DNA of 42,520 nucleotides, taken from contig JAMCST010000008.1 in NCBI GenBank assembly GCA_023380935.1, positions 1-42,520 on the forward strand. The letters run 5' to 3'. A program made the position numbers and the translations under genes. Position 1 is the first letter of the stretch. Each line of letters opens with the position of its first letter. The notes below the pieces were generated by a model. The model was not told the DNA's origin. It worked only from the letters and a program-made list of their open reading frames with translations, and did not search any database. Shown in pieces: positions 13,613-32,131 of the stretch. Origin of the DNA: Patescibacteria group bacterium. GTDB lineage: Bacteria; Patescibacteriota; Microgenomatia; UBA1406; GWC2-37-13.

Positions 13613-16600
13613 ATGCAAAAAATTAGCAAAAATACCATTATCCGCTACTTAAAATATCTTCACGAACGTGGAGAATCTACCGATGTGGTCCTAAGAAAAC
13701 TCCGGTCTGTGGATAAGTTTTTTGCCTGGGCTCACGCGCGCGCATATATAAAAGAGGAACTATATAAGCAGACGAAACGGGAAATTGATAAGGCGATCAA
13801 TCATGAAATCAAAACTTATGAGGCTAAAATTAAAACGCAAAAGGCTGATTTTGATCCGGGCAGCCGTCAGGCCTTAGACAATTGGGGACTGCGTCATTAT
13901 CTGGGCATTGCCCTTACTCTTATCTTGATGGCCTTTCTTGGCGTCGGCGTCTATACGCGCTTTTTCCTTAAACCAACCCAACCGTTCGCCTATCCCGCCG
14001 TTCCCACCGGTCCGGGAACCACTGCCGGTACTTCACGGATCATCTCGTTTCAAGGCCGATTGACCGATAGCTTGGGAAATCCGATCACCGCCACCATAGG
14101 AGTTGAGTACCGATTTTATAACGCGGCTACCGGAGGTACGCTATTAACTTCACGTTTATGTAACGTCTCCCCTGATGTCGACGGCATATTTTCTAGCCTG
14201 ATCGGAGAAGACTGCGGCGCCGCTTTGCCCGCCAGCCTGTTTACCGAGAATCCGGACGTGTACCTTGCGGTAAAGATGCAATCAGAAGCATCCGAAATGA
14301 CACCGAGACAACACATCGCGAACGTAGGCTACGCCATGAATGCCGAAACTTTGCAGGGCTTGCCGGCGGGGACAGGCACGTCTTCCATTCCTTTTATCAA
14401 TAAAGATGGTAATCTGCTAGTGGCCGTGGCTAACCCAGGTATCCGTTCCACCTTCACCAGCGCCGCCTTTACCATTTCAAGCGCTTCTACAGCCACAGTT
14501 CAGTCAGCCGGCACGGGTGACGTTATTCTTCAGGCCACTGAAAGTGGAACGCTTAAATTCCGTACGGCCGGTGCTAATGACACCTATACACGCATGACTA
14601 TTGATAACTACGGCAATGTTGGGATTGGGACGACCGTACCAAATGCATTATTAGACGTTCGCGGCAAGCTGAAGGTCGCTGACGGCACTCAAGGCGCCGG
14701 CTACTTTCTCACCTCTGACGCTAATGGAGTGGCTTCGTGGGTCGACCAAAGCAGTGTTGCCGGACCCTGGACCTACTCCGGTGCGCCAAACTACTATCTT
14801 TATCCCGACGACTATACCAATGCCAAGGTCGGGATCGGCACCACCACCGCATCGAATCTCCTGACCGTCCACGATCCGACCGGTGCCGGCGGTACGCTGG
14901 TCAAAATCGATACCAGTGCTTCCGGCACGACCGGAGGTTATCTGGAACTGACTGCGGCCACCAGAACCGTCAGACTGGGAGCAGACAGCCTGATCGGACC
15001 GCATTTCGGCAGCACCACCACCGGTGGCTTGATGTTCTTGGATAATTTCTCCATCAGCCCGATGCTCGCGCTTTCACCAAACAACGGCAGCATCGATCTG
15101 GGAACCGGCAGTTACCGGTTCGGCACCCTCTACAACACCAACGCCAACGTCAGCACCGCTTTGGGAGTCGGGTACGACCCCTCTTCCCTTTCCGGCGGCG
15201 TGGCCGGTTTCAACGGCAACGTCGGGATCGGAACTAGTACGCCGGCCGGAAAACTTGACGTTAAGTCAACGCAAACGTCGGGAACGATCGCCCTGTTCGG
15301 CGCACCTTCCGCCGTCTCGATGGCCGGAACCCTGACCGGAGTCAACCTCGATCTTTCCACCAACTATACCGCCACCGGATACGGCGTTACCGGTCAGTCT
15401 ATCGCTCTGCCCGCCGTAACCAACACTGGAACGGGAACGTATGCTTACAAAGGATTAACTATCGCCGGAGGCAATCTGGTCCAAAACACCGGCGCCGGCA
15501 CCGATACCTGGACCGGGCTGGACATCACCATGCCACCTACCCTCACCCAAACTACCGGATCGGTAACGGCGACAGGATTGAAGATCACCGGCCCGACCTC
15601 GGTCACTGGAGCAACCCGCTACGGACTGATCGTTGACGCCAACGCCGGCAACGTCGGCATCGGTACCACTTCTCCAGGTCAGAAGCTGGATGTCCAGGGA
15701 GGAGTAAGACTGGGAGCGGCTCTGGGAACCAATGACATCTTGAATACTTCAGCGGCTGGAGGAGCACCCAGTGGTAGTCTGTACTGGGGATCAAGGATAG
15801 TCTGTGACAACAGCGGTAACTGTGCGGGAGTGGGATCATTACCGTTGTCCAGTATTACGGCTGCCACAGGTACCAATACCATAGACAGTGGTGCCTATGC
15901 CCAGACCTGGAACTGGAATAGTCTGGCATCAGGTAATGCCTTCACGTTAGGATCATCGTCAACTGCAGGAGCTGCCAGCGGTACCAGTACGGTACTAAAC
16001 ATCTCCCGCTCAGGAGCCAATGCCAATACTGCTCATACTGCCTATGGTCTCTACTCAACAGTTACCAATACCAATGTCACCTCAGGCACCAATGTGGCCG
16101 GGTACTTCTCGGCATCGGGAGCAACCACCGCCAACTACGCTCTCTACTCGGCCGCCGGAGTGAACTACTTTGGGGGGAATGTGGGGGTGGGAACCACCTC
16201 GCCTGGAGCTGCCCTTGATATTGCAGGGAGTCTTCTGGTGAATAACGGGGGAACAATTGACACAAGAGCTGCAGGAACATTAGCCATTGGGGGGGCAACA
16301 CAGACCGGACTGACCATGGGGAGATCAGGCGCTACCACTACCATTAATGGCTCATCGGTGATAGTAAATAGCTTAACCGGCATGATTAAGGGAACAACCG
16401 GGACATTGTCTGCTGTGACCGGAACAACTAATTATGCCGCTTACTGGAGTGACGCCAATACCATCGCCGCTGAACAATACCTGGCCACTTCCCGGGGAGG
16501 ACTGGGAGCCAATGTCACGGCGGCCGGAGCCGGAGAACTGCTCTATTCCAGCGGGACAACTGCCTACGGTCATCTGGCAGCCGGGACATCGGGACAGATA

Positions 16601-18691
16601 CTAAAAGCCGCCGGAGCTGCTTCTCCTACCTGGAATACACCCGGAGCCTTGACCAAAACAGATGATACCAACGTGACCCTTACCCTGGGCGGCTCTCCCA
16701 CCACCTCTTTAGTTAACGCCGCTTCCATTACGGTCGGATGGAGTGGTCAACTGGCCATTGCCCGGGGAGGCACCAACAGTACTGCCACTCCAACCGCCGG
16801 AGGAGTTGCCTACGGAACAGGAACCGCCTATGCCTTTACCGGTGCCGGAACCAGCGGACAATTCTTGATCTCCAACGGAGCAAGCGCTCCTTCATGGACC
16901 TCAACCGTACCTGCTACCTCAATGAAGTGGAATGCCTTGACCAATCCCGACGGTAACCTTTCCCTCTCTATGGGGGCATACACTTCAACCTTCACCTACA
17001 ATGCTGCCACCTCAACCAACAACCTGTTCAATCTGACAGATACGGCTTCCAATACCGGTACAGGTTACCTACTCAACGTTACCACTGCCACAGGATCTAC
17101 CCTCAAACCATTCCATGTGTCGGTCAAGGGAGGAACAGAAGCGTTGATGGTGGATGCCAATGGCAACGTCGGCATCGGGACGACAAGTCCTGGAGCTCCG
17201 CTTGAGGTAAGAAAGTCAACAAGTGGAACAGTGACAAAATTTTTATCATCTGCCAACGCTAACAACGCTGATTTTATCTTCTCTAGCGGAATTGCTGGTA
17301 ATGTTAATAGTGGCCAAGTAAATCTTTACCTCGCTGATCGGGAAAGCAATAAATGGGGAATTAGGATGAACTTTACTACTCCTAATTTAACCTTTGAAGA
17401 TATTGCGAACAGTAAAACACCGTTTACCATTGAGACTAATACTCCGTCGAACACTCTGTATTTAAAAAGCACGGGCAACGTCGGCATCGGGACGACAGGG
17501 CCGGGGAGTAAATTAGATGTTGTTGGGCAGATTAATATTGCGAATGCTGGCGGAGATGCTATTCATATTGGGAACAATCAATTTATTAAAATGGCCAATA
17601 CTGGTGGAACTCAAAAGTTGCTGCTCGGCATAAGTTCTAATGACGAAACATATCTTCGTGGAGCAACCGTATTGCATTTGCAAGCAAACGATGGCGGTCA
17701 AGAAGTCACAATATTAAATAGCGGCAACGTCGGCATCGGGACGACAGGACCAGGGTATAAGTTGGAGGTGGCTGGTGATATTTATACTAACTCAAGAATA
17801 GCGATTGGCACAGCTCCTGTGGGCGGCGCCGGCACATTAGTTACCAATAGTTATGCTTTAATTAGAGGTATTTATGCAGGGTACAATAGCACCACTTCTT
17901 TAGGGAACGTAAACGATGGTGAAATGATACAGTTTGGCGGAGCCTCAGCAACGGATTTGGTATTGAAAAAAAATAGCGGCAACGTCGGCATCGGGACGAC
18001 GGGACCAGGATATAAACTTGCGATTGGAGATTTTGTTGATGGTAATAATTATGCGATTTCGGTGCAAGCAGGAAATGGGGAAAAGGCCTCATTAAAATTA
18101 TTCGATTATTCCACAAACTACGGTTTTACTATTGAAAATGATGGTACTTTACCTGCAGGAGAGGGGGGATTAAATATTATTCGCCATAATAATAGCGCCG
18201 CAGGAATAAGTGCAGTGTATATAAATAGAACCAGCGGCAACGTCGGCATCGGGACGACGAACCCCCTGGCAAAACTTCATGTTGAAGGCAGTTGTGTCAC
18301 CGGTGATACTTTACTGCCGATCAGACGACGTCGCCGCAAGAAAAAAAACAATCCTGACACTGCTGGTGACCCCAACGACTGGGAATGGGAATATTTATAT
18401 TGCCGTATCGACGAAGTTTTACCAGGAGATGAAGTATTATCGCTTAATGAGTCCATCGGCCGCGTGGAGTGGCATCAGATCAAAAATCGCATGGATATGG
18501 GAGTACGGGATATTTATGAAATAGTCACCAAGACTGGCAGACACATAAAGACAACGAGCAACCATCCATATTTGGCATTAATAGAGAAACCAGGGAAAGA
18601 GGAACTTGCGATTAAAAATCCTGTCAATACCGGCAGCGGGATAAAAAATGTAGATTATAAACGATTGACAAATCAACCAAAATTTCCGTAA
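13613..18691 (+). CDS. Giant tail-fibre-like surface protein, N-terminal part ending in an N-intein
   Basis: The 1692-residue product begins with half of a Xer-type core-binding domain (about 1-50) and a charged linker. One membrane helix follows (about 97-119), so the rest should lie outside the cell. A head domain starts with SRIISFQGRLTDSLGNPITA (about 142-250). Then come about ten copies of the motif NVGIGTTSPxxKLxV separated by variable beta-rich cassettes. Residues 1-1560 form the extein, ending AKLHVEGS. Cys1561 opens an intein N-half (CVTGDTLLPI; TxxH in TTSNHPYLAL) and the frame stops 132 residues later. Cassettes at 15761-16172 and 16712-17034 recur exactly in the downstream gene. 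GC falls in the last cassettes (about 17200-18290). Confidence 0.88.
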   Translation: MQKISKNTIIRYLKYLHERGESTDVVLRKLRSVDKFFAWAHARAYIKEELYKQTKREIDKAINHEIKTYEAKIKTQKADFDPGSRQALDNWGLRHYLGIALTLILMAFLGVGVYTRFFLKPTQPFAYPAVPTGPGTTAGTSRIISFQGRLTDSLGNPITATIGVEYRFYNAATGGTLLTSRLCNVSPDVDGIFSSLIGEDCGAALPASLFTENPDVYLAVKMQSEASEMTPRQHIANVGYAMNAETLQGLPAGTGTSSIPFINKDGNLLVAVANPGIRSTFTSAAFTISSASTATVQSAGTGDVILQATESGTLKFRTAGANDTYTRMTIDNYGNVGIGTTVPNALLDVRGKLKVADGTQGAGYFLTSDANGVASWVDQSSVAGPWTYSGAPNYYLYPDDYTNAKVGIGTTTASNLLTVHDPTGAGGTLVKIDTSASGTTGGYLELTAATRTVRLGADSLIGPHFGSTTTGGLMFLDNFSISPMLALSPNNGSIDLGTGSYRFGTLYNTNANVSTALGVGYDPSSLSGGVAGFNGNVGIGTSTPAGKLDVKSTQTSGTIALFGAPSAVSMAGTLTGVNLDLSTNYTATGYGVTGQSIALPAVTNTGTGTYAYKGLTIAGGNLVQNTGAGTDTWTGLDITMPPTLTQTTGSVTATGLKITGPTSVTGATRYGLIVDANAGNVGIGTTSPGQKLDVQGGVRLGAALGTNDILNTSAAGGAPSGSLYWGSRIVCDNSGNCAGVGSLPLSSITAATGTNTIDSGAYAQTWNWNSLASGNAFTLGSSSTAGAASGTSTVLNISRSGANANTAHTAYGLYSTVTNTNVTSGTNVAGYFSASGATTANYALYSAAGVNYFGGNVGVGTTSPGAALDIAGSLLVNNGGTIDTRAAGTLAIGGATQTGLTMGRSGATTTINGSSVIVNSLTGMIKGTTGTLSAVTGTTNYAAYWSDANTIAAEQYLATSRGGLGANVTAAGAGELLYSSGTTAYGHLAAGTSGQILKAAGAASPTWNTPGALTKTDDTNVTLTLGGSPTTSLVNAASITVGWSGQLAIARGGTNSTATPTAGGVAYGTGTAYAFTGAGTSGQFLISNGASAPSWTSTVPATSMKWNALTNPDGNLSLSMGAYTSTFTYNAATSTNNLFNLTDTASNTGTGYLLNVTTATGSTLKPFHVSVKGGTEALMVDANGNVGIGTTSPGAPLEVRKSTSGTVTKFLSSANANNADFIFSSGIAGNVNSGQVNLYLADRESNKWGIRMNFTTPNLTFEDIANSKTPFTIETNTPSNTLYLKSTGNVGIGTTGPGSKLDVVGQINIANAGGDAIHIGNNQFIKMANTGGTQKLLLGISSNDETYLRGATVLHLQANDGGQEVTILNSGNVGIGTTGPGYKLEVAGDIYTNSRIAIGTAPVGGAGTLVTNSYALIRGIYAGYNSTTSLGNVNDGEMIQFGGASATDLVLKKNSGNVGIGTTGPGYKLAIGDFVDGNNYAISVQAGNGEKASLKLFDYSTNYGFTIENDGTLPAGEGGLNIIRHNNSAAGISAVYINRTSGNVGIGTTNPLAKLHVEGSCVTGDTLLPIRRRRRKKKNNPDTAGDPNDWEWEYLYCRIDEVLPGDEVLSLNESIGRVEWHQIKNRMDMGVRDIYEIVTKTGRHIKTTSNHPYLALIEKPGKEELAIKNPVNTGSGIKNVDYKRLTNQPKFP
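15761..16172 (+). repeat. 412-bp direct repeat, copy 1
   Basis: By eye this segment is identical to 22127-22538. The offset of 6366 bp is a multiple of three and both copies are in the same codon phase of their genes. Confidence 0.9.
16712..17034 (+). repeat. 323-bp direct repeat, copy 1
   Basis: By eye identical to 23012-23334 (offset 6300 bp, in frame). The 155 bp just upstream differ at about 25 positions but by only one amino acid. Confidence 0.88.
18293..18688 (+). other. N-terminal half of a split intein
   Basis: The 132-residue segment begins with the catalytic Cys in block A (CVTGDTLLPI). An Arg/Lys-rich insert follows, then YCRIDEVLPGDEVLSLNE, and block B TTSNHPYLAL with Thr88 and His91 of the intein. 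After block B come about 40 residues with no further intein motif, then a stop. The strand normally found after block B (W-xx-xx-LKVGxxIAV) is absent here and present at the start of the C-half. The Hint fold and motifs fit protein splicing rather than Hedgehog-type cleavage because a matching C-half with His-Asn-Thr follows. Confidence 0.9.
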
Positions 18692-18699
18692 ATAAAACT

Positions 18700-20133
18700 A
18701 TGAAATCTTTAAAGAAATTTCTAAATAAAACCCTCACGCTTTTTGGAAGAAAAGCAAAAATCACACAAAATCGTGAGGAAACAGCTCCACCGAATCGTGA
18801 GGTAAAACCATCAAAATTAGTGATGGAATCCCTCGCCTGTCCTTATTGTTCCTCGACCGATTTCCAAAAACGCGGCTTCCGGCAGAAAAAGCTGGAGCGG
18901 GTACAACTTTATTTGTGCTTGTCCTGCAAAAAAACCTTCACTCCCCACTTAACCCGCGGCAAGCATTATCCGCTGGCGGTGATGTTGGATGCGGTCAGTA
19001 TATATAATTTGGGATATTCACTGGAGCAAACGTGCAGAATCGTAAATGAGCGTTCCAGTGCCGACCTTAATCGAAGTTGCAAACGAGTCCCGGCCGCCGT
19101 ATTGGAAAAAAGGGAGCGGGGCGTTCAACCATCTACCTTGTCAAACTGGCTTTCCGAAACCGCCGAACTCTGTCGTTTTGCCCGTATGCGCGAATATGCC
19201 ATGAAGAAATACCTACCTAAAGAAATGGTAATTCATGCCACCCTTGCCCATCGTCAACTGTATCGCTATCGCTTTCATCGTGCAAAGTGCGATCTTATGA
19301 TTAAAGAGGAATATCAACACCGCAAATTTTTGCCGCTCAAAGAGTTTTTAGAAATGATTCCTGTTGAGTGTCCGCATCAATATTTTCAAGAAGGATTAAG
19401 AGCGTCGGAGGCACCGTTGACATTTTCCAAAACTCAGATGATTGTTCGCGCAAAACAAAACTATGCCACCAAATTAGCGACATTCGTCCTGCAATCGGTC
19501 AAAGAAAGAAAAGGCCGCCATGAAGCCCTGCAAAAATTTATGTTGGTAAATGACAGCGTGACGGTGGCAACGGAAGTACCGGTGTATATTACCCGTGACG
19601 ACCTGGAGCATTTGAAAACTCAATTGGGATTTAAGATATATACCAAAAATTCAAATGATAAAATTCAAATGACAAATCAAATCTCAAATTCAAAACCCAA
19701 TAATCCCGCTGCCGGAATTAACCGAGATCTATCAGCAAAGTCCCTGCCGAAAACCTCCGCAACCACTGCGGAGGTTGGTATTGCCGATGTTGCATCCCTA
19801 CCAAAACTCATAACCGGCCATATTGACTTTATTCAAATTAGAAACGGCCAGATCCATATCCTTGACTATAAACCACGCGCGGAAAAAGAACGACCGATTG
19901 AACAACTAACTCTGTACGCAATGGCTTTATCCCGCCTAACCGGCTTAAGATTATACGAATTCAAATGCGCATGGTTTGACGAGAAAGATTATTTTGAATT
20001 TTATCCGCTGCACGTTCTGCACAAATCAAGGAAAACCAAGCGACGCAGAAAAGTGTACACGATGGAAGGAATTTATAGCGTAAATAAAGATGAAACGAAA
20101 ATTACTAATTTAAGGGCAAGTATGAAATTTTAA
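18700..20133 (+). CDS. Zinc-ribbon/HTH protein with C-terminal PD-(D/E)XK nuclease domain (candidate homing endonuclease)
   Basis: The 477-residue product starts 8 nt after the N-intein stop. It has a four-cysteine zinc ribbon (Cys47, Cys50, Cys73, Cys76) and a transposase-like HTH region (YSLEQTCRIVNE...VQPSTLSNWL, about 108-150). A C-terminal RecB/Cas4-type nuclease domain follows: GHIDF (Asp376), LDYK (Asp389, Lys391) and EQLTLYAMAL (Gln402, Tyr406), which match the D, (D/E)xK and QxxxY motifs. No DDE transposase catalytic core is visible. About 50 residues before the nuclease domain come from inserted repeats. Sitting inside a split intein, it is a good candidate for the homing nuclease; repair or mobile-element regulation are alternatives. 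Confidence 0.8.
   Translation: MKSLKKFLNKTLTLFGRKAKITQNREETAPPNREVKPSKLVMESLACPYCSSTDFQKRGFRQKKLERVQLYLCLSCKKTFTPHLTRGKHYPLAVMLDAVSIYNLGYSLEQTCRIVNERSSADLNRSCKRVPAAVLEKRERGVQPSTLSNWLSETAELCRFARMREYAMKKYLPKEMVIHATLAHRQLYRYRFHRAKCDLMIKEEYQHRKFLPLKEFLEMIPVECPHQYFQEGLRASEAPLTFSKTQMIVRAKQNYATKLATFVLQSVKERKGRHEALQKFMLVNDSVTVATEVPVYITRDDLEHLKTQLGFKIYTKNSNDKIQMTNQISNSKPNNPAAGINRDLSAKSLPKTSATTAEVGIADVASLPKLITGHIDFIQIRNGQIHILDYKPRAEKERPIEQLTLYAMALSRLTGLRLYEFKCAWFDEKDYFEFYPLHVLHKSRKTKRRRKVYTMEGIYSVNKDETKITNLRASMKF
19644..19703 (+). repeat. AT-rich dispersed repeat inserted in frame in the nuclease gene
   Basis: Tandem AAATTCAAATGA-type units encode the low-complexity run NSNDKIQMTNQISNSKPNN between the central region and the nuclease domain. 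Such strings are usually intergenic in these genomes; here the frame stays open. Confidence 0.55.
19752..19776. repeat. 10-bp hairpin repeat inside the nuclease gene
   Basis: AACCTCCGCA and its exact complement TGCGGAGGTT are separated by 5 nt. It is GC-rich in an AT-rich gene and lies next to the AT-rich repeat, in a stretch (PKTSATTAEVGIAD) that looks like linker. It resembles a small REP-type or palindromic insertion. Confidence 0.55.
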
Positions 20134-20187
20134 ATTTGAAATTTTTAATCAATATCAAATTTTTATTAATTTAATTTTTAAAATATT
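20134..20187. repeat. AT-rich spacer repeat
   Basis: The 54-bp gap before the first four-helix-bundle gene is nearly pure A/T (AAATTTGAAATTTTTAATC and similar). Related strings occupy 20542-20606 and 21911-21949, all inside the intein module. Confidence 0.45.
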
Positions 20188-20541
20188 ATGACAAACATAT
20201 ACGATTTAGAAGAAAGAACTACGATATTTTCCGAACGACTAATTGATTTTTATAAGAAATGTCCTAGAAATATCATCACCATTCCTCTCATTGACCAAGG
20301 GTTACGAGCGGGAACCAGTATTGGAGCTAATTATATGGAAGCAAATGGGGCATCAAGCAAAAAAGACTTTAAAAACAAAATCTTTATCTGTAAAAAGGAA
20401 GGCAAGGAAACTATGTATTGGCTTCGGCTTACGGCACGAGTAATAGATGAGGAAAATCTTAAAGAAGAATGTAGATTTTTATGGAAAGAAACACATGAGT
20501 TAACTTTAATATTTTCTAAAATCGCCTCTAAAACCAAATAG
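20188..20541 (+). CDS. Four-helix-bundle protein (TIGR02436-type), copy 1
   Basis: The 117-residue protein matches the common short four-helix-bundle family: it opens YDLEERTTIFSERLIDFYKK and contains IDQGLRAGTSIGANYMEA, SSKKDFKNKIFICKKEGKET and a final HELTLIFSKI helix. Members are found as intervening-sequence proteins in 23S rRNA genes and, in related form (Avd), as accessory proteins of diversity-generating retroelements. Neither a reverse transcriptase nor an rRNA gene is near. Placement inside a split-intein module is unusual. The function of the family is unknown; nucleic-acid binding is suspected. Confidence 0.88.
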   Translation: MTNIYDLEERTTIFSERLIDFYKKCPRNIITIPLIDQGLRAGTSIGANYMEANGASSKKDFKNKIFICKKEGKETMYWLRLTARVIDEENLKEECRFLWKETHELTLIFSKIASKTK

Positions 20542-20606
20542 TTTACAAATTAAGAAATTAAATATTAAAAATTGATTACAAATTTTAAATTAAAAATTAA
20601 AAATTT
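20542..20606. repeat. AT-rich spacer repeat
   Basis: A 65-bp AT-rich spacer of AAATTAAAAATT-type units between the two four-helix-bundle genes, running up to the next ATG. The same units recur at 21911-21949. Confidence 0.45.
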
Positions 20607-20996
20607 ATGAACTATTATCCAAAACGACCGGTAAAGAGTTTTCAGGATTTGGAAGTGTATCAAAAAGCTTTGGCTATCTGTGTCGCTGTTGTCAAAAAAA
20701 TACCGGCGCAAGAGGAACTGCATCAATGCATCGTCGCTCTCCCCCGCCTCATTGCGACTGCTCATTCTCTGCGCTTTTCCGATCAGCAAAAAGCGATTGA
20801 TATTTTGGAAGACGCTATGCTTAAATGTAATTTAAGCGTGGTCTATCTTGACCAGTATCGCGACATTGACAATAAAGAGATAGAAATTGAATTCTTTGAG
20901 AAACAAATTAAAGATTTACTGTCGCTGCGGATAAAAATCATGCATCTACAACGGTCGTGGAGAAAGTTTTTTCAAACAAAAATCTATGAAAAATAA
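20607..20996 (+). CDS. Four-helix-bundle protein (TIGR02436-like), copy 2
   Basis: The 129-residue protein begins with the phrase SFQDLEVYQKALAICVAVVKK, the usual opening of this family. It then follows an all-helical pattern with LHQCIVALPRLIATAHSLRF in place of the typical antibiotic-like GAxSIxANI segment, so it is a divergent member. It lies between copy 1 and the NYN gene and overlaps the latter by 11 nt, which suggests co-translation. The pair, one typical and one divergent, may form a hetero-oligomer; that is an inference only. Confidence 0.75.
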   Translation: MNYYPKRPVKSFQDLEVYQKALAICVAVVKKIPAQEELHQCIVALPRLIATAHSLRFSDQQKAIDILEDAMLKCNLSVVYLDQYRDIDNKEIEIEFFEKQIKDLLSLRIKIMHLQRSWRKFFQTKIYEK

Positions 20997-21985: not shown

Positions 21986-24900
21986 ACATATGCGGCGATA
22001 TTTAATGGCGGCAACGTCGGCATCGGTACCACTTCTCCTGCTGCCAAGCTGGAAGTCTACCAGGGAGGAGTCAAGCTGGGATCAACGGCAGGGGCGAATA
22101 ACATTCTCGATACAGCCTCATCTGGTGGAGCACCCAGTGGTAGTCTGTACTGGGGATCAAGGATAGTCTGTGACAACAGCGGTAACTGTGCGGGAGTGGG
22201 ATCATTACCGTTGTCCAGTATTACGGCTGCCACAGGTACCAATACCATAGACAGTGGTGCCTATGCCCAGACCTGGAACTGGAATAGTCTGGCATCAGGT
22301 AATGCCTTCACGTTAGGATCATCGTCAACTGCAGGAGCTGCCAGCGGTACCAGTACGGTACTAAACATCTCCCGCTCAGGAGCCAATGCCAATACTGCTC
22401 ATACTGCCTATGGTCTCTACTCAACAGTTACCAATACCAATGTCACCTCAGGCACCAATGTGGCCGGGTACTTCTCGGCATCGGGAGCAACCACCGCCAA
22501 CTACGCTCTCTACTCGGCCGCCGGAGTGAACTACTTTGCTGGGAATGTGGGAGTGGGGACGACTTCCCCATCCTCCTACACTCTTCAAGTTGTAGGCACA
22601 GGAGGATTTAGCACGTCCGTTAATTCTCCCCTTTTTCAAGGCCAAGGAGCAGCGGTGACATTGGGGAATGCGTCGTATACGACCAGCGTCACCGGCTCAA
22701 CCGTATACGTCAGTCCTTTAACCACTAACGGAGTGGTATATACGTCGGGAAGCAACGGTGCATTAAACAGCGAACAATATCTCGCCACTTCCCGGGGAGG
22801 ACTGGGAGCCAATGTCACGGCGGCCGGAGCCGGAGAACTGCTCTATTCCAGCGGGACAACCGCCTATGGCCATCTGGCAGCCGGGACCAGTGGGCAGATA
22901 CTAAAAGCGGCCGGAGCCGCTTCTCCGACCTGGAATACGCCCGGAGCTTTAACCAAGACCGATGATACGAACGTAACCCTTACCTTAGGCGGTTCTCCCA
23001 CCACTGCCCTGGTTAACGCCGCTTCCATTACGGTCGGATGGAGTGGTCAACTGGCCATTGCCCGGGGAGGCACCAACAGTACTGCCACTCCAACCGCCGG
23101 AGGAGTTGCCTACGGAACAGGAACCGCCTATGCCTTTACCGGTGCCGGAACCAGCGGACAATTCTTGATCTCCAACGGAGCAAGCGCTCCTTCATGGACC
23201 TCAACCGTACCTGCTACCTCAATGAAGTGGAATGCCTTGACCAATCCCGACGGTAACCTTTCCCTCTCTATGGGGGCATACACTTCAACCTTCACCTACA
23301 ATGCTGCCACCTCAACCAACAACCTGTTCAATCTTACCGATACGGCTTCCAATACCGGTACAGGATATTTACTTAATGTTACTACTGCTTCCTCTTCCAC
23401 TCTTCATCCTCTTCATGTCTCTGCTGCCGGGACAGAGGCACTCATGGTTGATACCAATGGATATGTGGGGATTGGGACGACGAGTGCGAGTTATCCTCTA
23501 GATGTAAATGGAACAATCAAAACAAATACTGGCTTGCGCATCGTGGAAACCAGTGCAGCCGAAAGGTCTATTGTTAACTACAACACTATAAATGGCGGTT
23601 GGTATATGGGTAATACCACAGATGGACGTTTCTTTTTGGATGGTATGACTTCGGGGGGAGCATACGAAAGAACCTTACTCACTCAAGTATCGCATAGTTT
23701 AAGCGATATGTATTTTACTGGTAATCTTGGCATCGGTACCACAACTCCAGGAGCAAAGCTGGAGGTTTCGGGAACTGCAATTATCTCAGGAACAGGAACA
23801 GCCTTAACACTGTCAGGAGCAGCCACAACAGCCATCAACATCTCCAATACCGGGGTTACTACCGATATTAATCTTCAAAATGGAGCAACAATTGATAATG
23901 ATGTTAGTGGTAGTATCAGACTTGGTTCAACCACTCTTACCCTAAATGGCACCACCACTCTTACCGCTTCCTCTTTAGCTACCTTTACCAGTGCAGCCAC
24001 TCTGGGAATGACCAGTACTACTACTCTTAATCTTGGCACCAACGCCACCTTGACCAACAACTCGGGAACACTGACGGTCAATGCCAACAGTACAAGCAAC
24101 CTTCTGCTCAACAGTAACGGCGGCAATGTGGGGATTGGGACGACGGGGCCGGGGGCGAAGTTGGAAGTATTTGGAAATAGCCCAAGCATCAAGATTACGG
24201 AAGATTCTAGTTCTAGTTATTATTTACAAACACAGGTTAACTATAACGCCGCTGATTCTGTCAACTTTATTGGACCCTATGGCGCCACCTTTTTGCAATT
24301 TGACGCAACAACAAATACTCCCACAACGCTTGGGACAACGAGTGGATACACAATATTACAAGGTAACGTCGGCGTCGGGACGACCAGTCCGGCGGCGAAA
24401 TTGGATGTTAATGGCGATATAACAGCCGAAGGCAACTTTATCTCAAGTACTTTTGTCCAAGGCATGCCCACCAATCTTATTGTGAACGGCGGATTTGAAA
24501 CTGATCTGGGGGGATGGTCGGCTAATTTAGCCACAATTACACAACAAGCAGGCGGATACTACGGCGGTTACTCGATGAAGGCTGTTTACAGCGGTTCTGG
24601 CGACAATTACATTTCCTACACATTGCCCACAGTAGCCCAAACACTTGCCAGTCGAAGTTACACGTTTTCTTTCTGGGCAAAAGCTGATTTAGCCGGGAGT
24701 TTTTCATCTGCACCTTTTCTTCAAGAGTTAGGTGGAGGCACTTATGCCTGTAATCTTTCCGATACTGCGCTTACCACGTCTTGGAAGAAATTTAAAGCTA
24801 CATGCACTTGGGGAGCCGGCATTACAGCGACAACATGGAGGGTCATTCTAAGAACAACCGGAAACGTGAGTAATAATGTTTACTTCGACGGCGTTAATGT

Positions 24901-27900
24901 GCAAAACGGCACAACCGGTACTGATTACACAAATATTGCCGCGAACGATACGGGAAACACATATTTATATGATGGCAACGTCGGCATCGGCACCACTTCC
25001 CCATCGAACAAGCTTGACGTTAGGGGGGCAACCGGAACAAGGGCAGCTTACTTTGATGGCAGAGTCAGAGGAGAAAATGCTTCTTCTTCTGATGAATTCG
25101 TTACCCTGGCTCAACTTCAGGGAGGATCAGGATCATTGTGGTTGGATGGTGGAACATACCTGTATCCTAACTCGACATACGCCACTGACGTCATGGTGCC
25201 GTCAGGTAATGTGGGGATTGGGACAAATGCACCAGAGACTTCGTTAACTATCAAAAATACAGGATATCGACAACTTGCTATTAGGGGTGGAGCCACAGGC
25301 CACCAAACATTGAACTTAGGTAGTGTAGAGAGTACTGTCGGTTCATACATTTACAATAACGCTTATTATGCGACCTCCAATACTTATACTCCTTCACAAA
25401 CCAGTGCGTCTGGCATGCAGTTAAGGAACGATGGTTCTATTGATCTATTGACTGATACCGGATTGTCGATTGGAGTTAACTATACTCCAACTTCAAGAAT
25501 AAAAATTCTTAATAACGGCAACGTCGGCATCGGGACGACGGGACCAGCGCATAAACTCGAGGTAACGGGTGGGATATATGCTTCCACCTATTTAGATGTC
25601 GGAGGAAACAACTGGTTAAGACTGGGGGGAAGCAATGCTCTTTCGAATAACAGTAACTTTTTGTATATCGGTGACGGTTCAAGTCTTGCCAGCGGCATTT
25701 ATGCCCGCGCCACCTATAAAGCAGCTAGTGGATATAATGTTATTCCTTATACCACGCTTGGTTCTGACTTAGGCGACTCTTCGCATTATTGGGGAAACTC
25801 ATATATTCAAAACGGGTATTTTTCCGGCAATGTCGGTATCGGGACGACGACGACGGCAGCAAAGTTGGATATTCCTAGTGGCGGAATCATCGCCGGCACA
25901 ACGGGTGCTAATGGTAGTCAGTTTTATGCGATTGGCCTAACAAGAACAGCGGGAGCGATGTTATATGATCAAGCCAATTCTGCATTAACGCTAGGGGGTG
26001 ATTCTACTGGATCTGATATGACAATCTTGGCAAATGGCAACGTCGGGATTGGGACGACGAGTCCAGGGGCGAAGTTGGAATTAACCTCCGGGGATCTATA
26101 TATCAACGCCAACGGTACTGCCAACGTTGGCCTTCCTTATTTGAAAAACTCCACAAGCTTTGGCTCCAGTAGGAACAACTATTTAATCTCCATGGGAGGC
26201 ACTTTAGCCGGTAGGCTACTTAACCGAAATGCAGAGATGCTCGACGGCACTATCGGCTATGCCCTATATGATAACTCTGGCGGCGGACACACCACTATTT
26301 CTTCCGTAGCTGATTCTCAAGCTCCAAACACTTCAGGCAGTGTCCTTCGTCTCTCTTATGATGGACTAGGCACCCCTAGCTCTAATCCGACTCCTGGATT
26401 CGGTGGATTTAATATAGCGGTTGCTCGATGTTCGGGAACAAATAATGGCATTAACGGATTTTGCTACCGAGAAGGCAATCGCTATTTTATTAGAATCTGG
26501 GCAAAAATTCCGTCGGGAAGAAGTATTTATTTCGCTTCAAACTCTTATGGGACAGGTGGAAATTTTCAGTGGGAGTCATCACAAGCCGGAGCAGATGATT
26601 GGCGCGAATATGACGGAATCCAAACCATTGGGATTGGCGGAACATTTTCATCCACCGGCTTCTGGTATGTCAGCGGCGGAACCAATGCGGCTTTTAACTG
26701 GGATGTAGCTAGTGTGCAGATGGTTGGTCTTGATGAAACACCCAGTGTCGAAACTGCAAGCAATCTTAACGTTGGTTATTATCAGGGAAAAAACCTCAAT
26801 TATGGGGAACTTTTGACGACCCAGGGGGCATATCTGGCCGCATCGGGCGGCAACGTCGGCATCGGGACGACGGCGCCGGGACAAAAGTTGGAAGTGGCCG
26901 GCAATGTTATCGGAAGCGGGACGGTGGGCACCAGCGCCTCGCGCTGGAGTTCGGGATATTTTGATTCGTTGACAGTTACCGGCAGCATCTATGCCGCCGG
27001 CACCAACATCGCCGGAACCACCGCCAATGATTTTACCATTAACACGGACAACGCCACGGCCGATGCCGAAGCAATGAGCTTAACTTTTGAGAGAGGGACA
27101 ACCACTCCCAACTCCACTCTGGCTTGGGACAATACCAACGATACGTTCGATTTTAATTTCCCCATTTCGGTCGAAAACGCCGGTATTAGCTATATTCAAG
27201 GTAACGTCGGCATCGGTACCACCGCCCCGGGAACCTACAAGCTTTACGTTGCCGGAACAGGAAAGTTCACCGGAGCAGTTGATACTGACGTTCAGTTCTT
27301 GGGTCAAGCATCAGACACTGTCTCGGCTCCTTCCTTCTCCTGGACTGGTGATACAACTACCGGTATGTATCGTCCTGCCGCCAGCCAGATTGCTTTAACC
27401 CTGGGAGGAACCCAAAGGGCTCTGTTCACCGCAACCGCCTTGACGCTTACCGGACAAACAACATTGACCGCCTCTTCTCTTTCCACTCTCACGACAGGAG
27501 CGACACTGGGAATGACCAGCACCACCACCTTAAACTTAGGCACCAACGCTACCTTGACGAACAACTCTGGCACCTTAACTGTCAATGCCAACAGTACCAG
27601 TAACCTCCTCCTTAATACCAATGGAGGGAATGTGGGGATTGGGACGACGAGTGCAGGAACTCGACTTGACGTGGTCGGCGGAGCCATCCGCACCAACAAT
27701 CAACTAATCTCTACGGTTGCCACCGGCACCTCGCCGCTGGCGGTTTCGTCGACTACTGTCGTTACTAACCTTAACGCCGATATGGTCGATGGACTGCACT
27801 CCACATCACTAGTACAAACCGGCGGGTCCCTCTTAACTCTGGCCGGAGATTCGGGCAGCGTAGCGGTTAACCAAGGTAACACCCTGACCGTGGCCGGCGG

Positions 27901-30900
27901 ATCAGGTTTAACCTCCACGGCTGCGGCCGGCCCGACCGTCACTCTTAATGTCGGCGCCGGCACCAACATTCAGGTCAACGCCAACGACGTGGCCACGGTA
28001 ATGAACCCGTCATTTACCACGTCCGTAACCACACCATATTACTATGTCACAGCTGGAAACGGATACGGAGTCGGATACTGGGCCTCTGCCCCAACCACAT
28101 ATGGAACCTTTATGAGCAACTCGGCAAGCTATATGTACGGTGATGTAACTGATTATTATATTGCCAATGTTATGTCGAGTGGAACTGGCCGTGGATTTAC
28201 CTGGTCGTATGGAACCACTCCCAGCATGGGCCTGAATGCCAGCACCGGAAACCTGGCAATCAAAGGTCTGTTTACGGCTAATGGATCAGGTAACAATTAT
28301 TTTGCCGGCAACGTCGGCATCGGGACGACCGCACCTGATACTCAATTAGAGGTCACCGGGTCTATCGATACCTATGCCAACAGCAATCGATACTACTACA
28401 ATGTCTATCAATACTCCGATTCCGGCAACCCTGATACCGGAACATTAGCCATCGCCATGCCCCGAGGTTGGACAAGCACAATGATGAGGGCCCATATAGT
28501 CGGTTATGATTACAGCGGGCTTGGTACTTGGGAAGTAATCGTCGGGGGTTACAACTATTCCGGCACGCCGGCCTGGATAAATTATACTGCCGAAGTACGA
28601 GGCACGGCGCCTTTTAATCAAGTCCGGTTGGCCTACAACGGCAGCAAGATGGTAATCCTATTGGGAACTACTACTACGACGTGGCGTTATCCCAAATTTG
28701 CCGTGACGGAATTCATGGCCGGGTTCGGCAGTTATTCTGGTTGGGGTAGTGGCTGGTCTTCCTCATTCCTCACTTCTGAAGCTAGTATTACCAATTCGGT
28801 TACACCTACTCTTTATACCTACATGGATTCGGGCGGAAACGTCGGTATCGGGACCACCGGGCCGAGCTACAAACTGGATGTTGCCGGCGACGTAAGGGCT
28901 ACCGGCGATTTATATGCCAACGGAACAGATGTTTTTGGCGCCAACTCTATGTCACTTAATCTTGGCACATCAGCTAACTTGATCGGTTTTAAGGATTCCA
29001 CCGGTTACAACCGTATTACAATTGATACCGCCCAAACCAGTTATCCAAGAATTTATGGCTATACCAATGCTGGGGCCGCCACTTTAGTTCAGTTCACATC
29101 GGGCATTTTTAATAACGGTGGTACGCTTTATTCCCAAAACCAAATTTACGCGCGTGGTGGAATTGCCAATGACACTGCTTCAACCGCTCTTTCTCTTAAT
29201 GACGCCGAAGGTGTAATCTTTGCCGGTCCAATCTCCGGCATCAGCACCATCACTACTTCCAGTACTATTAACAGCCAAACGATTTCCTCGGCGGCCAGTT
29301 TTACCGGCACGTTAGCCGTTGCCAGTGATTTGACCGTTACCGGCGGAGATATTAAACAAGGCGGCTCCGACGACCTGCGGCTTTGGGCCGGCACCGGCGG
29401 AGATGTTTGGTTTTACAAATCCGATGGCACGGCGGCCGGCCGGGTCGACACCTCGGTTGCCAGCGGTTCGGGTACCGATGTCCAAGACGCCAATTATTTG
29501 ACTGGTGATGATGCTAATTACACTGTTTTTTACGGCAACAGCACCTCTAGCGCTTGGAATTCACAGAGTTTCACCACCGGCGGAACCGGCGGGTCTTTAT
29601 CAAAGATCAATTTTAAACTATGGCGTAACGAAACTTCATATAGTTATAGTGTCTGGACCGAAATTCAAACCTGCACTGGCGATACCCCGACCGGCGTGGT
29701 GTTGGGAACGTCCGACGTGGTTGCATCTTCATCAATTAGTTCGACCAGTCCGGGAGCAGCTGTTACTTTTACCTTCAGTAATCGACCGTACCTGAACTCA
29801 AGTACCAAATACTGTGCGGTTTTGAAAACTACCACGCCATCCGACGGTACCCATTATATCAACATGCGTGTCGACAGCACTAGTTCTTCCTATTCTGGCG
29901 GACAGCTTTGCCGCACTACCAATTCCGGTCAGACTTGGGACTGTGGCTCGTATACTGCGGTCGATGCCTATTTTGATGAATATTATAATAACCGTTACGG
30001 GACCTTGTATATCGGCGCAGTCAACACCAGTTCAGCGGACTTGGCGGAAAAGTATCCGTCCGTGCAAGATTTATTAGCGGGTGAAGTCGTTGCCTTTGAC
30101 CCGCAAAACGAAAATCACGTTATCCGCTCCACCCAGGCTTACGAAAAGAACCTGATGGGTGTCGTTTCCACCGACCCCGGTTTGTTGCTTGGCGCGCCTG
30201 ACGGAAGCGGCGACAAGCAGTATCCGGTGGCCCTTTCCGGCCGGGTGCCGGTCAAGTTCAGCGCGGAAAACGGTAACGTGGTGGTCGGCGATCCGCTTAC
30301 CAGCTCGGCCACCAAACCGGGCTATGCCATGCGCGCCACCCAGCCCGGATTGATTATTGCCAAGGCCCTGGAGTCGTCGCAAAAATGTGCCCAAACTTCC
30401 GATTGCAAAATAAACGCCTTTATCGCCCTTAAATATGACGAACCACAGATGATGCTGGCAGACAGCGGTGATGTTGTTATTTTGGAAAACACCAACTCTG
30501 GTTCACCCGATCAAGGCAACTCATCTTACTCCATTGCCACGGCCGCCGGTGAAACCATCACCCGTGTCGGTGCCTTTGCCCGGCTAACCGCGGCCAACCT
30601 GGAAACCGGCGCCGTCAAAGCCAAAACCGTTACGACCGATTCGTTGAATGTGGGCGGACAAACGTTGAGAGAATTTGTTACGAACGTTGTAAATGAAACC
30701 ATTGCCCGAAGCAACACGATTATCAACGGAACAATCGATAAACTGATCGTCCGTGAAAAGACCATCTCCCCGATCGTCGAGACGACCGATCTGGTCGCCA
30801 GCGGCTCGGCCGACATTGCCCAATTGCAGACCAATGAAATTAAACCGAAAAATAACGCTTTAACGATTGATTTGTCAAATGTAGGGGACGGATCCCCCGT

Positions 30901-32131
30901 CCCGACGCCGGAAAACCGCGGCGAATTCGCCCGGCTGATGATTAAGGGAATGGAGGGCAAAACCGTCGCCAGCATTGATGCCGCGGGCAACGCCACTTTC
31001 AGCGGCACGTTGGCGGTCAAGGAAGCGTCGGTTTCCGGCAATCTCGCCGCCAATTCGGTTAATACTAACTCTCTCAACTCGCAACTCGCCTCGATTTCCG
31101 GCAAGTTAGTGGCCAAACAGATCGAGTCGGACACGATCAATGCTCTGAACAACCAGATCAGCAGTTCATCGGCCAATATTAACAAGGTAATCACCGACAA
31201 CCAGCAGCTCACCACCGACATCAACGATATTCAAAAATTACTGAGCGAATTGAAAAACCAACCGCTGCCCGACCCCAACGATTATCAAACTATCCCCAAT
31301 CTCACCGTCAATCCCGATCCGACCGCGACCGGTTCCAGCCCCACGCTGCCGGCAACCGGTAGCTTTGACAGTCTTACCGTAACCAATGGCGCCAACTTTT
31401 ACAATGCGACGGTTTCCAACTCGCTGGTCGCCGGAAACGTGATGATCCAAAACGACACGATTCTGGCGCTGGCTTCAGAATTAAGATTGTCGGCGCTGGT
31501 TGACATCAACCTATTTGACGGCGCGGTCGTCATCGCCAAGAACGGCGACATTACTACCAAGGGTGAACTAACCGCGCTATCTGGCATCCGCACCAACACC
31601 ATTAAACCTGTCACGTCCAGTAACGATCTGGCGATTCAACTGGATCAGTCCGGTCAGAACGCCGCCAACCCCAAACTGAAAGTCGCCAACTCAAATGGCG
31701 ACGAGGTGGCGTCAATTGATGCTTCGGGCTCGGCCCGATTCAAGTCGCTTGGACTTGAGAAGTTCCTTGACGCTACCGGTTCAGCCGCCATTGTCGCTGC
31801 CCCGGATAACTTTGCCAAAAACGGCATTTACGCGCCGGCCATCGAAACCAAGGCGCAAACGGCCGGCGTCGGCATTCTGCCGGCTAACGAAAACACCGTA
31901 ATTATTTACAATACGAGCGTGAAAAATGATTCTTTGGTCTACCTGACACCCACCTCTGACTCGGCCAATGAACTGCTCACGGTGGAGAAAAAAGAAAGTT
32001 GCCCGACCAACCTGTCCGATCTGACTGGTACAACCGTACAGGCCGCCGAGACCTGCCATCCTTATTTTCAAGTTACCAGCCGCACCAACCTCCACGACGA
32101 TATTAAGTTTAACTGGCTAATCATCAACTAA
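21572..32131 (+). CDS. Giant tail-fibre-like surface protein, C-terminal part beginning with a C-intein
   Basis: The 3519-residue product from the ATG at 21572 overlaps the NYN stop by 8 nt; an upstream ATG at 21497 lies inside the NYN gene and is less likely. Residues 1-138 are the C-intein, ending GIIAHN before Thr139. The extein then has about sixteen NVGIGTT-type repeats, a carbohydrate-binding-like module (NLIVNGGFETDLGGW, about 967-1113), other lectin-like stretches (about 1544-1726 and 2643-2806) and a Peptidase_G2-like region (LAEKYPSVQDLLAGEVVAFD...YPVALSGRVPV, about 2820-2960). A long repetitive stalk completes it. There is no signal peptide, so export must depend on splicing to the upstream part. 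The predicted ligated product is about 4,941 residues. Confidence 0.88.
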   Translation: MFDALANYISEVVRGKKIRIGGQDAQWKKVVDIKVGMKIAVTKQNSNIISDFGFSASDSDVEWDEIVSIKRLSPERVYDIEVEDTHNFVAGHFIDLPSGNETILTDEPQRGPPTNNFKIKNLKLKIGQKWFGGIIAHNTYAAIFNGGNVGIGTTSPAAKLEVYQGGVKLGSTAGANNILDTASSGGAPSGSLYWGSRIVCDNSGNCAGVGSLPLSSITAATGTNTIDSGAYAQTWNWNSLASGNAFTLGSSSTAGAASGTSTVLNISRSGANANTAHTAYGLYSTVTNTNVTSGTNVAGYFSASGATTANYALYSAAGVNYFAGNVGVGTTSPSSYTLQVVGTGGFSTSVNSPLFQGQGAAVTLGNASYTTSVTGSTVYVSPLTTNGVVYTSGSNGALNSEQYLATSRGGLGANVTAAGAGELLYSSGTTAYGHLAAGTSGQILKAAGAASPTWNTPGALTKTDDTNVTLTLGGSPTTALVNAASITVGWSGQLAIARGGTNSTATPTAGGVAYGTGTAYAFTGAGTSGQFLISNGASAPSWTSTVPATSMKWNALTNPDGNLSLSMGAYTSTFTYNAATSTNNLFNLTDTASNTGTGYLLNVTTASSSTLHPLHVSAAGTEALMVDTNGYVGIGTTSASYPLDVNGTIKTNTGLRIVETSAAERSIVNYNTINGGWYMGNTTDGRFFLDGMTSGGAYERTLLTQVSHSLSDMYFTGNLGIGTTTPGAKLEVSGTAIISGTGTALTLSGAATTAINISNTGVTTDINLQNGATIDNDVSGSIRLGSTTLTLNGTTTLTASSLATFTSAATLGMTSTTTLNLGTNATLTNNSGTLTVNANSTSNLLLNSNGGNVGIGTTGPGAKLEVFGNSPSIKITEDSSSSYYLQTQVNYNAADSVNFIGPYGATFLQFDATTNTPTTLGTTSGYTILQGNVGVGTTSPAAKLDVNGDITAEGNFISSTFVQGMPTNLIVNGGFETDLGGWSANLATITQQAGGYYGGYSMKAVYSGSGDNYISYTLPTVAQTLASRSYTFSFWAKADLAGSFSSAPFLQELGGGTYACNLSDTALTTSWKKFKATCTWGAGITATTWRVILRTTGNVSNNVYFDGVNVQNGTTGTDYTNIAANDTGNTYLYDGNVGIGTTSPSNKLDVRGATGTRAAYFDGRVRGENASSSDEFVTLAQLQGGSGSLWLDGGTYLYPNSTYATDVMVPSGNVGIGTNAPETSLTIKNTGYRQLAIRGGATGHQTLNLGSVESTVGSYIYNNAYYATSNTYTPSQTSASGMQLRNDGSIDLLTDTGLSIGVNYTPTSRIKILNNGNVGIGTTGPAHKLEVTGGIYASTYLDVGGNNWLRLGGSNALSNNSNFLYIGDGSSLASGIYARATYKAASGYNVIPYTTLGSDLGDSSHYWGNSYIQNGYFSGNVGIGTTTTAAKLDIPSGGIIAGTTGANGSQFYAIGLTRTAGAMLYDQANSALTLGGDSTGSDMTILANGNVGIGTTSPGAKLELTSGDLYINANGTANVGLPYLKNSTSFGSSRNNYLISMGGTLAGRLLNRNAEMLDGTIGYALYDNSGGGHTTISSVADSQAPNTSGSVLRLSYDGLGTPSSNPTPGFGGFNIAVARCSGTNNGINGFCYREGNRYFIRIWAKIPSGRSIYFASNSYGTGGNFQWESSQAGADDWREYDGIQTIGIGGTFSSTGFWYVSGGTNAAFNWDVASVQMVGLDETPSVETASNLNVGYYQGKNLNYGELLTTQGAYLAASGGNVGIGTTAPGQKLEVAGNVIGSGTVGTSASRWSSGYFDSLTVTGSIYAAGTNIAGTTANDFTINTDNATADAEAMSLTFERGTTTPNSTLAWDNTNDTFDFNFPISVENAGISYIQGNVGIGTTAPGTYKLYVAGTGKFTGAVDTDVQFLGQASDTVSAPSFSWTGDTTTGMYRPAASQIALTLGGTQRALFTATALTLTGQTTLTASSLSTLTTGATLGMTSTTTLNLGTNATLTNNSGTLTVNANSTSNLLLNTNGGNVGIGTTSAGTRLDVVGGAIRTNNQLISTVATGTSPLAVSSTTVVTNLNADMVDGLHSTSLVQTGGSLLTLAGDSGSVAVNQGNTLTVAGGSGLTSTAAAGPTVTLNVGAGTNIQVNANDVATVMNPSFTTSVTTPYYYVTAGNGYGVGYWASAPTTYGTFMSNSASYMYGDVTDYYIANVMSSGTGRGFTWSYGTTPSMGLNASTGNLAIKGLFTANGSGNNYFAGNVGIGTTAPDTQLEVTGSIDTYANSNRYYYNVYQYSDSGNPDTGTLAIAMPRGWTSTMMRAHIVGYDYSGLGTWEVIVGGYNYSGTPAWINYTAEVRGTAPFNQVRLAYNGSKMVILLGTTTTTWRYPKFAVTEFMAGFGSYSGWGSGWSSSFLTSEASITNSVTPTLYTYMDSGGNVGIGTTGPSYKLDVAGDVRATGDLYANGTDVFGANSMSLNLGTSANLIGFKDSTGYNRITIDTAQTSYPRIYGYTNAGAATLVQFTSGIFNNGGTLYSQNQIYARGGIANDTASTALSLNDAEGVIFAGPISGISTITTSSTINSQTISSAASFTGTLAVASDLTVTGGDIKQGGSDDLRLWAGTGGDVWFYKSDGTAAGRVDTSVASGSGTDVQDANYLTGDDANYTVFYGNSTSSAWNSQSFTTGGTGGSLSKINFKLWRNETSYSYSVWTEIQTCTGDTPTGVVLGTSDVVASSSISSTSPGAAVTFTFSNRPYLNSSTKYCAVLKTTTPSDGTHYINMRVDSTSSSYSGGQLCRTTNSGQTWDCGSYTAVDAYFDEYYNNRYGTLYIGAVNTSSADLAEKYPSVQDLLAGEVVAFDPQNENHVIRSTQAYEKNLMGVVSTDPGLLLGAPDGSGDKQYPVALSGRVPVKFSAENGNVVVGDPLTSSATKPGYAMRATQPGLIIAKALESSQKCAQTSDCKINAFIALKYDEPQMMLADSGDVVILENTNSGSPDQGNSSYSIATAAGETITRVGAFARLTAANLETGAVKAKTVTTDSLNVGGQTLREFVTNVVNETIARSNTIINGTIDKLIVREKTISPIVETTDLVASGSADIAQLQTNEIKPKNNALTIDLSNVGDGSPVPTPENRGEFARLMIKGMEGKTVASIDAAGNATFSGTLAVKEASVSGNLAANSVNTNSLNSQLASISGKLVAKQIESDTINALNNQISSSSANINKVITDNQQLTTDINDIQKLLSELKNQPLPDPNDYQTIPNLTVNPDPTATGSSPTLPATGSFDSLTVTNGANFYNATVSNSLVAGNVMIQNDTILALASELRLSALVDINLFDGAVVIAKNGDITTKGELTALSGIRTNTIKPVTSSNDLAIQLDQSGQNAANPKLKVANSNGDEVASIDASGSARFKSLGLEKFLDATGSAAIVAAPDNFAKNGIYAPAIETKAQTAGVGILPANENTVIIYNTSVKNDSLVYLTPTSDSANELLTVEKKESCPTNLSDLTGTTVQAAETCHPYFQVTSRTNLHDDIKFNWLIIN
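21911..21949 (+). repeat. AT-rich repeat translated inside the C-intein
   Basis: The string TTTTAAAATTAAAAATTT and its continuation encode NNFKIKNLKLKIG between intein blocks F and G. It is the same kind of string as the spacers at 20134-20187 and 20542-20606. Confidence 0.55.
22127..22538 (+). repeat. 412-bp direct repeat, copy 2
   Basis: By eye identical to 15761-16172. It begins about 140 bp after the intein-extein junction and is in the same codon phase. Confidence 0.9.
23012..23334 (+). repeat. 323-bp direct repeat, copy 2
   Basis: By eye identical to 16712-17034; identity breaks abruptly on both sides while the protein sequence stays nearly the same upstream. Confidence 0.88.

Follow-up and report, generated by a model that had tools for sequence, protein, structure and literature searches.

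Fractured genes, in which a gene is divided by a split intein and a putative endonuclease gene lies between the halves, were reportedly described by Dassa and colleagues in 2009. The same arrangement is described in PMC7891396 for the AceL NrdHF intein, which is divided at the usual site into fragments of 98 and 48 amino acids; its host, as in the fractured genes, is a phage-type enzyme and the nuclease between the halves is of the GIY-YIG type. According to PMC11923092 natural splits are of two kinds: those at the endonuclease position, which give one fragment of about 100 amino acids and one of about 40, and those that leave an N-terminal fragment of 15-25 amino acids. Here we describe a locus from a Patescibacteria group bacterium (contig JAMCST010000008.1), examined in a window that is the whole stretch of 42,520 nucleotides analysed, where a giant surface fibre protein is coded by two genes of the same direction. 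The upstream gene ends in the N half of an intein (IntN), the downstream gene starts with the C half (IntC), and four genes lie between them, coding for a nuclease (pd), an S23 protein, a four-helix bundle (hb) and a NYN-domain protein, so that six genes including both halves run in one direction.

From these sequences we consider it likely, with a probability of roughly 0.84, that a naturally split class-1 intein acts by protein trans-splicing to join the two gene products, giving one giant surface fibre anchored in the membrane, and that the fibre gene is fractured by a cassette with a zinc-ribbon PD-(D/E)XK nuclease and a four-helix bundle between the two halves. The fractured gene with a split intein is known; the host protein, the position of the split and the companion genes are new. 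In contrast to the fractured genes and AceL NrdHF, the host here is a giant fibre of tiny, uncultured bacteria of the candidate phyla radiation (CPR), the intein is split after block B, and a zinc-ribbon PD-(D/E)XK nuclease with a four-helix partner occupies the gap. In the literature judged by title and the start of the abstract, a coverage with subscription papers largely outside it, and in the accessible parts of PMC7891396, PMC7090010, PMC6801210, PMC11923092 and PMC11270868, we found no report of a split intein in a surface protein of CPR bacteria, in agreement with a preliminary description of this DNA, to whose author no described case was known of a structural surface protein of this size in this lineage. 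The finding places naturally split inteins in giant surface proteins of CPR bacteria. To the natural split positions it adds one between block B and the strand that follows, and protein engineers may find use in the natural pairs, of which there are at least 14.

The two intein halves and the break between them

Judged by its motifs and profile matches, the intein is a class-1 intein, complete and conserved, and naturally split across two genes. Cys1 of IntN is residue 1561 of the upstream gene (position 18293), and IntC begins with Met at 21572 and ends in His-Asn, followed by Thr+1 at 21986. The preliminary description had assigned a Cys1-block A-block B half to one gene and a block F and G half, His-Asn then Thr, to the other, and we confirmed both the coordinates and the residues. 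It had no mention of the four intervening genes, of the insert between blocks F and G of IntC, or of the overlap of the listed C-gene start with the NYN gene. It had also proposed a comparison with Hint and intein models, in which the halves proved to match complementary parts of the Pfam and NCBIfam intein models, IntN remaining below the cut-offs. Since the Pfam Intein_splicing matches tile positions 11-75 (IntN) and 77-152 (IntC, 37.2 bits, over the curated 35.8) of the 155 in the profile, the two would together make up most of one intein; the two matching open reading frames (ORFs) are 2.9 kb apart. NCBIfam intein_Cterm is likewise over its cut-off (26.2 vs 15.6), and in the organism's own genome (940 kb in 17 contigs, about 85% complete) the Pfam intein model gave no match beyond these two halves.

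The closest solved sequences to the split family are DnaB mini-inteins (PDB 4o1r and 1mi8), which differ in being contiguous chains with a helicase host. Because the halves of one split relative (L117) align to residues 19-80 and 84-142 of 4o1r, the break would be upstream of the endonuclease position of such inteins by roughly 20 residues. Split IntN measure 89-145 amino acids and their chains end 4-38 residues past block B (15/15 in both respects), at most 8 residues past it in 10 of them, and a W.KV..L..G..IAV-type element (W..V/I..L..G..IA) stands ahead of block F in 17/17 split IntC. On these alignments the split point is conserved, between block B and the W.KV element that follows, and this is neither of the natural positions named in the accessible parts of PMC7891396 and PMC11923092. 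The canonical site does not describe it, with IntN ending soon after block B and the W.KV element held by IntC, and neither does a very short IntN. The atypically split inteins of PMC11923092 are alike in having a natural split away from the endonuclease site, but they differ from the present family in the length of IntN and in the place of the break.

Contiguous inteins of CPR fibre proteins (L013, L014, L016, L081 and others) belong to the same family and often occupy the same LHVxG-C...HN-TY junction (hyphens mark splice points), yet they form one chain and have no nuclease-hb pair between blocks B and F.

Relatives, descent and the case for trans-splicing

The IntN profile matched 36 of 373 genomes of the class at an E-value of 1e-6, the organism's own included, the weaker matches being probably other inteins. 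We mapped both halves in 20 stretches around the stronger matches and in three earlier stretches; most of these relatives are contiguous inteins within one ORF, many at LHVxG[QS]-C...HN-TY in NVGIGT-repeat proteins, and three loci (L083, L089, L096) are split like the window, with the nuclease and hb between the halves in L089 and L096 and two other ORFs but no nuclease in L083. A search for the nuclease, with one genome per species and independent of inteins and fibres, gave 51 loci, among them L089 and L096 as L101 and L102. Most carry CPR/Patescibacteria labels, a few are labelled "bacterium" only, one is assigned to Aenigmatarchaeota (L140) and one to Anammoxibacter (L145). In 12 of these 51 loci the nuclease-hb pair has IntN on one side and IntC on the other, and four more (L106, L110, L112, L147) have one half and a nearby contig end. 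Adding the window and L083 gives 14 complete split inteins. Of the 13 outside the window 12 have the pair, so that the arrangement of fractured genes, with a nuclease of invariant catalytic residues between the halves, is seen in the window and 12 further loci. The split intein is therefore not a lone oddity: a dozen related genomes share the arrangement, and the nuclease between the halves is often the same. Among the 13 nuclease-bearing split loci the NYN gene lies between the halves in five and the S23 gene in two.

The preliminary description had allowed that related genomes might show the halves as unrelated Hint-type remnants with no conserved junction. The opposite was found: Cys1 and block B TxxHP are present in 15/15 split IntN (the window and 14/14 others), HN followed by Thr in 17/17 split IntC, and the complete split inteins group together as a clade. 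In a tree of the family (48 inteins, 14 of them split and 34 contiguous; copies L089 and L096, IntN below 60 amino acids, and frame-broken inteins with halves in different ORFs less than 800 bases apart were left out), whose root is not known, that clade has an ultrafast bootstrap of 97 and a Shimodaira-Hasegawa-like approximate likelihood ratio (SH-aLRT) of 97, and it was recovered in 96% of 200 bootstrap trees. That the 14 split inteins share one clade is consistent with the split form having arisen once, from contiguous inteins. The ratio of nonsynonymous to synonymous divergence (dN/dS) is 0.05-0.22 for IntN (4 of 7 pairs measurable) and 0.04-0.24 for IntC (7 of 9 pairs), figures that are rough as many dS exceed 1; they indicate purifying selection on both halves in the measurable pairs, the window's own pairs being too divergent.

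Taken together, the intact motifs, complementary profiles, single clade, conserved split point, purifying selection and conserved cargo make trans-splicing, on present sequence evidence, the best explanation. Once IntN and IntC have associated, the intein would be excised and LHVEGS ligated with TYAAIF through Cys1, the residues of blocks B and F, His-Asn and Thr+1. The preliminary description placed the membrane helix in the N part with none clear in the C part, and a crude hydropathy test bears this out, the highest 19-residue Kyte-Doolittle mean being 2.15 in the N part vs 1.52 in the C gene. As the N part has the one clear membrane helix, splicing would come before export of the C part; no export signal is evident in the C part of this fibre of about 4900 residues, which would have to be joined before or during export. 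A further claim, that the junction restores the repeat register, turned out to be uninformative: joining gives a spacing of 27, a value seen once among 236, and the claim cannot be shown because motif spacing varies widely in these proteins. Around the splice point the LHVEGS-TYAAIF junction does align, with no gap, to an uninterrupted repeat of L024, which lacks an intein at that place, though such repeats match easily.

One may also consider that the halves associate but only cleave, like bacterial intein-like domains, in which case the intein would be a maturation device and the fibre two chains. Some bacterial intein-like domains sit in surface proteins, as this intein does, and the L117 IntN weakly matches a solved one (E = 0.14). 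However, a cleaving domain needs no +1 nucleophile, and bacterial intein-like domains are those in which it is not conserved, whereas here Thr+1 is found in every split IntC and, by an automatic pattern, in 48 of 57 intein-family matches (two of the other nine are pattern artefacts), and the best solved relatives are DnaB inteins; we therefore regard cleavage alone as improbable.

Several observations weigh against trans-splicing, and some of them would suit a dead remnant, or a gene broken by insertion, with two fibre pieces acting apart. The IntN match is under the Pfam curated threshold (27.8 bits vs 35.8) and just under that of NCBIfam intein_Nterm (23.7 vs 24.5); the roughly 40 residues inserted after block F and before block G in the window's IntC, an unusual feature, are missing from the other five members of alignment A3; the block-F His, present in 15/17 split IntC including the window's, is Arg in L083 and L137; and dS of the window-L101 pair is saturated. 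Contiguous family members in two genomes (G370 and G049) show frame-broken copies, so decay of family inteins does occur. Many relatives of the fibre have no intein at all, which means that the fibre as such does not depend on splicing. Nevertheless, with conserved catalytic residues, low dN/dS in the measurable pairs and the same architecture in 14 loci, a remnant is very improbable. Least probable would be an assembly or binning artefact; the genomes are without exception metagenome-assembled or of a similar kind, and the fibres are rich in repeats, but the order of parts is the same in 13 nuclease-bearing loci from different projects and selection is seen at the codon level.

An F-G insert with the same DEP.RGPP motif occurs also in L101 and L083, which share the IntC leader as well, and longer F-to-G gaps of other kinds occur in L090 and L082; no second copy of the insert stretch was found in the organism's own genome. 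That the insert disables the window's intein was considered, an idea weakened by the insert in L101 and L083 and the gaps in L090 and L082.

In G370 (L081, L082) there are 13 IntN-profile matches in clustered fibre genes, with several inteins per protein at LHVVGQ-C...HN-TY, some of them frame-broken in an Arg/Lys-rich insert. We rejected these breaks and those of G049 as a second natural split site, as they are indel-like breaks in that insert and most of the downstream frames inspected have no start codon near the break. One contig of another genome (C33 of G142; L085, L086) has an open frame of 13945 amino acids with two contiguous inteins.

The nuclease and four-helix bundle

The pd gene starts 8 bases past the IntN stop (18691). 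All 42 homologues examined match Pfam PDDEXK_1, and the catalytic residues D376, D389, K391, Q402 and Y406 (D...DxK with QxxxY) are invariant in 42/42 aligned sequences, which by sequence makes pd a member of the PD-(D/E)XK nuclease superfamily. The pd model has a mean predicted local distance difference test (pLDDT) of 77.9, and a fold search gave weak AddAB/RecB/Cas4 matches, none at an E-value of 0.001. Directly after pd lies hb in 47 of the 51 loci, and in three of the remaining four the contig ends at most 28 bases from the nuclease. The predicted hb structure resembles S23/IVP proteins and, more weakly, the diversity-generating retroelement accessory protein Avd (best Foldseek match S23 2rld, then Avd 8ub7 and 4dwl, none reaching an E-value of 0.001); it differs from the S23/IVP proteins in that most members, 22 of 37 including the window's, have no PF05635 match, which the other 15 do have. 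The nuclease is rare: it was found in 6 of 373 genomes of the class, the organism's own included and one copy fragmented, and among 57 close relatives in the organism's own genome only. No pd relatives were found in viral contigs, phage records or plasmid records.

The divergence of the nuclease-hb pair tracks that of the intein. Intein and nuclease distances are correlated over 13 loci (r = 0.82, p = 0.0001; L083, which has no nuclease, is excluded), and between the window and L101 IntN, pd, hb and IntC are each 65-67% identical, in contrast to the longest extein matches at 36% over 131, 34% over 135 and 28% over 737 residues. The same contrast is seen in L136/L137 and L103/L106, but not in L124/L148 (exteins 61% and 71%) nor in the C-exteins of L107/L109 (74%).

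A fibre-like gene is also frequent beside the pair where no intein half was detected. An automatic test, with the nuclease start set by hand for L103 and L112, placed such a gene upstream on the same strand in 25 of the 41 loci with at least 1 kb upstream, against 0/41 on the other strand and 0/28 downstream in non-split loci. Of the 16 loci that failed this test L127 and L148 have IntN, ORF reading suggested fibre ends in L104, L108, L114, L123, L133, L138, L142 and L144, no fibre end was evident in the ORFs of L111, L122, L126, L130 and L139, and L131 is ambiguous. Without a detected intein half, the pair often sits just 3' of an unsplit fibre gene, and in one genome (G381, L084) a fragmented nuclease lies downstream of a contiguous-intein fibre gene. 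A nuclease tree (a quick method without bootstrap, 3 of 52 sequences dropped as short) needs six changes of the split label, at least four of them forced by supported branches; six is a rough count, as the 33 "not split" rows include contigs that end too near the nuclease to tell. Given these changes and the single clade of split inteins, the pattern reads best as repeated loss of the intein with the nuclease-hb pair left behind, repeated gain being a possible alternative. In L142 an intact fibre end is followed by the pair and then by an orphan fibre C-terminus, which is the layout expected if loss of the intein leaves the pair behind; the orphan was hit by one set of fibre queries, among which was an intein-bearing ORF, and not by a second set.

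How the pair relates to the intein may be explained in two ways. The nuclease and hb may have no tie to the intein at all; they would then be a module linked to the fibres, perhaps serving to recombine fibre genes, and would stand between the halves by chance. This has a real though less than even chance of being correct, as the position 3' of unsplit fibre genes, the label changes in the nuclease tree and the nuclease-free split locus L083 would be expected of it, whereas the single clade of split inteins, the distances that track those of the nuclease, the identity of the window and L101 in the cassette rather than the exteins, and L142 with its apparent intein loss argue the other way. Alternatively, and more tentatively still, a mobile CPR cassette (IntN, zinc-ribbon PD-(D/E)XK nuclease, four-helix bundle, IntC) may fracture giant fibre genes, the nuclease and four-helix pair being a new kind of homing module by which the split intein moves from one fibre locus to another, with a repeat-flanked trans-splice point that would let cells exchange or delete fibre tips. 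In the trans-splicing account, too, the nuclease with hb would drive homing or recombination at fibre loci; a pair tied to the split could explain variation of the giant fibres.

The nuclease-hb pairs of the Aenigmatarchaeota locus and the Anammoxibacter metagenome-assembled genome have a fibre-like gene upstream, at 4.8 kb (L140) and 458 bases (L145), and reflect either transfer from CPR or mis-binning.

Fibre genes and layout of the window

By sequence the exteins are fibre-like, and relatives of the fibre C-terminal region were found in 36 of the same 57 genomes (own genome included), often as long single ORFs of up to 7471 amino acids. The TTG listed as start of the C gene (21497) overlaps the NYN gene, which makes the ATG at 21572 the more probable start. 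Over its first 1.5 kb the C-extein is a repeat of part of the N-extein, in the same frame by arithmetic (Table 1); recombination between the two copies would be expected to delete the cassette and leave one shorter fibre gene. Promoter- and terminator-like sites in the window occurred at chance level only.

Table 1. Positions of the fibre, intein and intervening genes within the window
Feature	Position	Strand	Details
N gene	13613-18691	+	1692 aa
N-extein of giant fibre protein	13613..18292	+	1560 aa
Membrane helix, strongest hydrophobic stretch of the two-gene protein	13901..13957	+	hydropathy 2.15
Duplicated fibre segment, N-extein copy	15646..17188 (15646-16203 and 16472-17188)	+	DNA identity 93% and 90% to 22009-22569 and 22772-23485
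IntN, N half of split intein	18293..18688	+	132 aa; stop codon 18689-18691; PF14890 E=2.5e-6
Block B, TTSNHPYL	18551..18574	+	sequence
Nuclease gene pd, IS1/IS1595-type zinc ribbon and PD-(D/E)XK (RecB/Cas4-like)	18700..20133	+	Pfam PDDEXK_1 and NCBIfam IS1_IS1595_Zn over cut-off
S23 / 23S rRNA-intervening-sequence four-helix protein (S23/IVP)	20188..20541	+	PF05635 6.1e-13; TIGR02436
Four-helix bundle hb	20607..20996	+	four helices in a model of pLDDT 91.5; next after pd in most relatives
NYN-domain protein	20986..21579	+	PF01936 4.7e-22; last 8 bases overlap IntC gene start
IntC, C half of split intein	21572..21985	+	138 aa; block F DTHNFVAG, block G IIAHN; PF14890 E=3.2e-9
Insert of ~40 residues between blocks F and G of IntC	21846..21967	+	not in five other members of alignment A3
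C-extein of fibre, first residue Thr+1	21986..32131	+	3381 aa and stop
Duplicated fibre segment, C-extein copy	22009..23485	+	begins 23 bases after splice point

Some fibre proteins start with a cytoplasmic-type DNA-binding domain (window 13613-14002; L016 2041-2484, minus strand; L117 651-1100; L084 7402-7812, minus strand). The match is to MerR above cut-off in L016, to HTH_17 below cut-off in L117 and L084, and a weak one to an integrase SAM-like domain in the window, and the domain precedes the membrane helix in the window and L117 fibres. No domain was found at the fibre starts of L136 and L137, where the ORF ends scanned are possibly not the true starts. Just 5' of the window's fibre gene (12896-13372) a protein of 158 amino acids has a phage-integrase SAM-like N-terminal domain and is too short for a catalytic domain. 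Low-complexity coding stretches at 19650-19780 (NDKIQMTNQISNSKPNN) and 21910-21950 (NFKIKNLKLKIG) look like small repeats inserted in frame, and similar stretches are seen in cargo genes of relatives such as L101.
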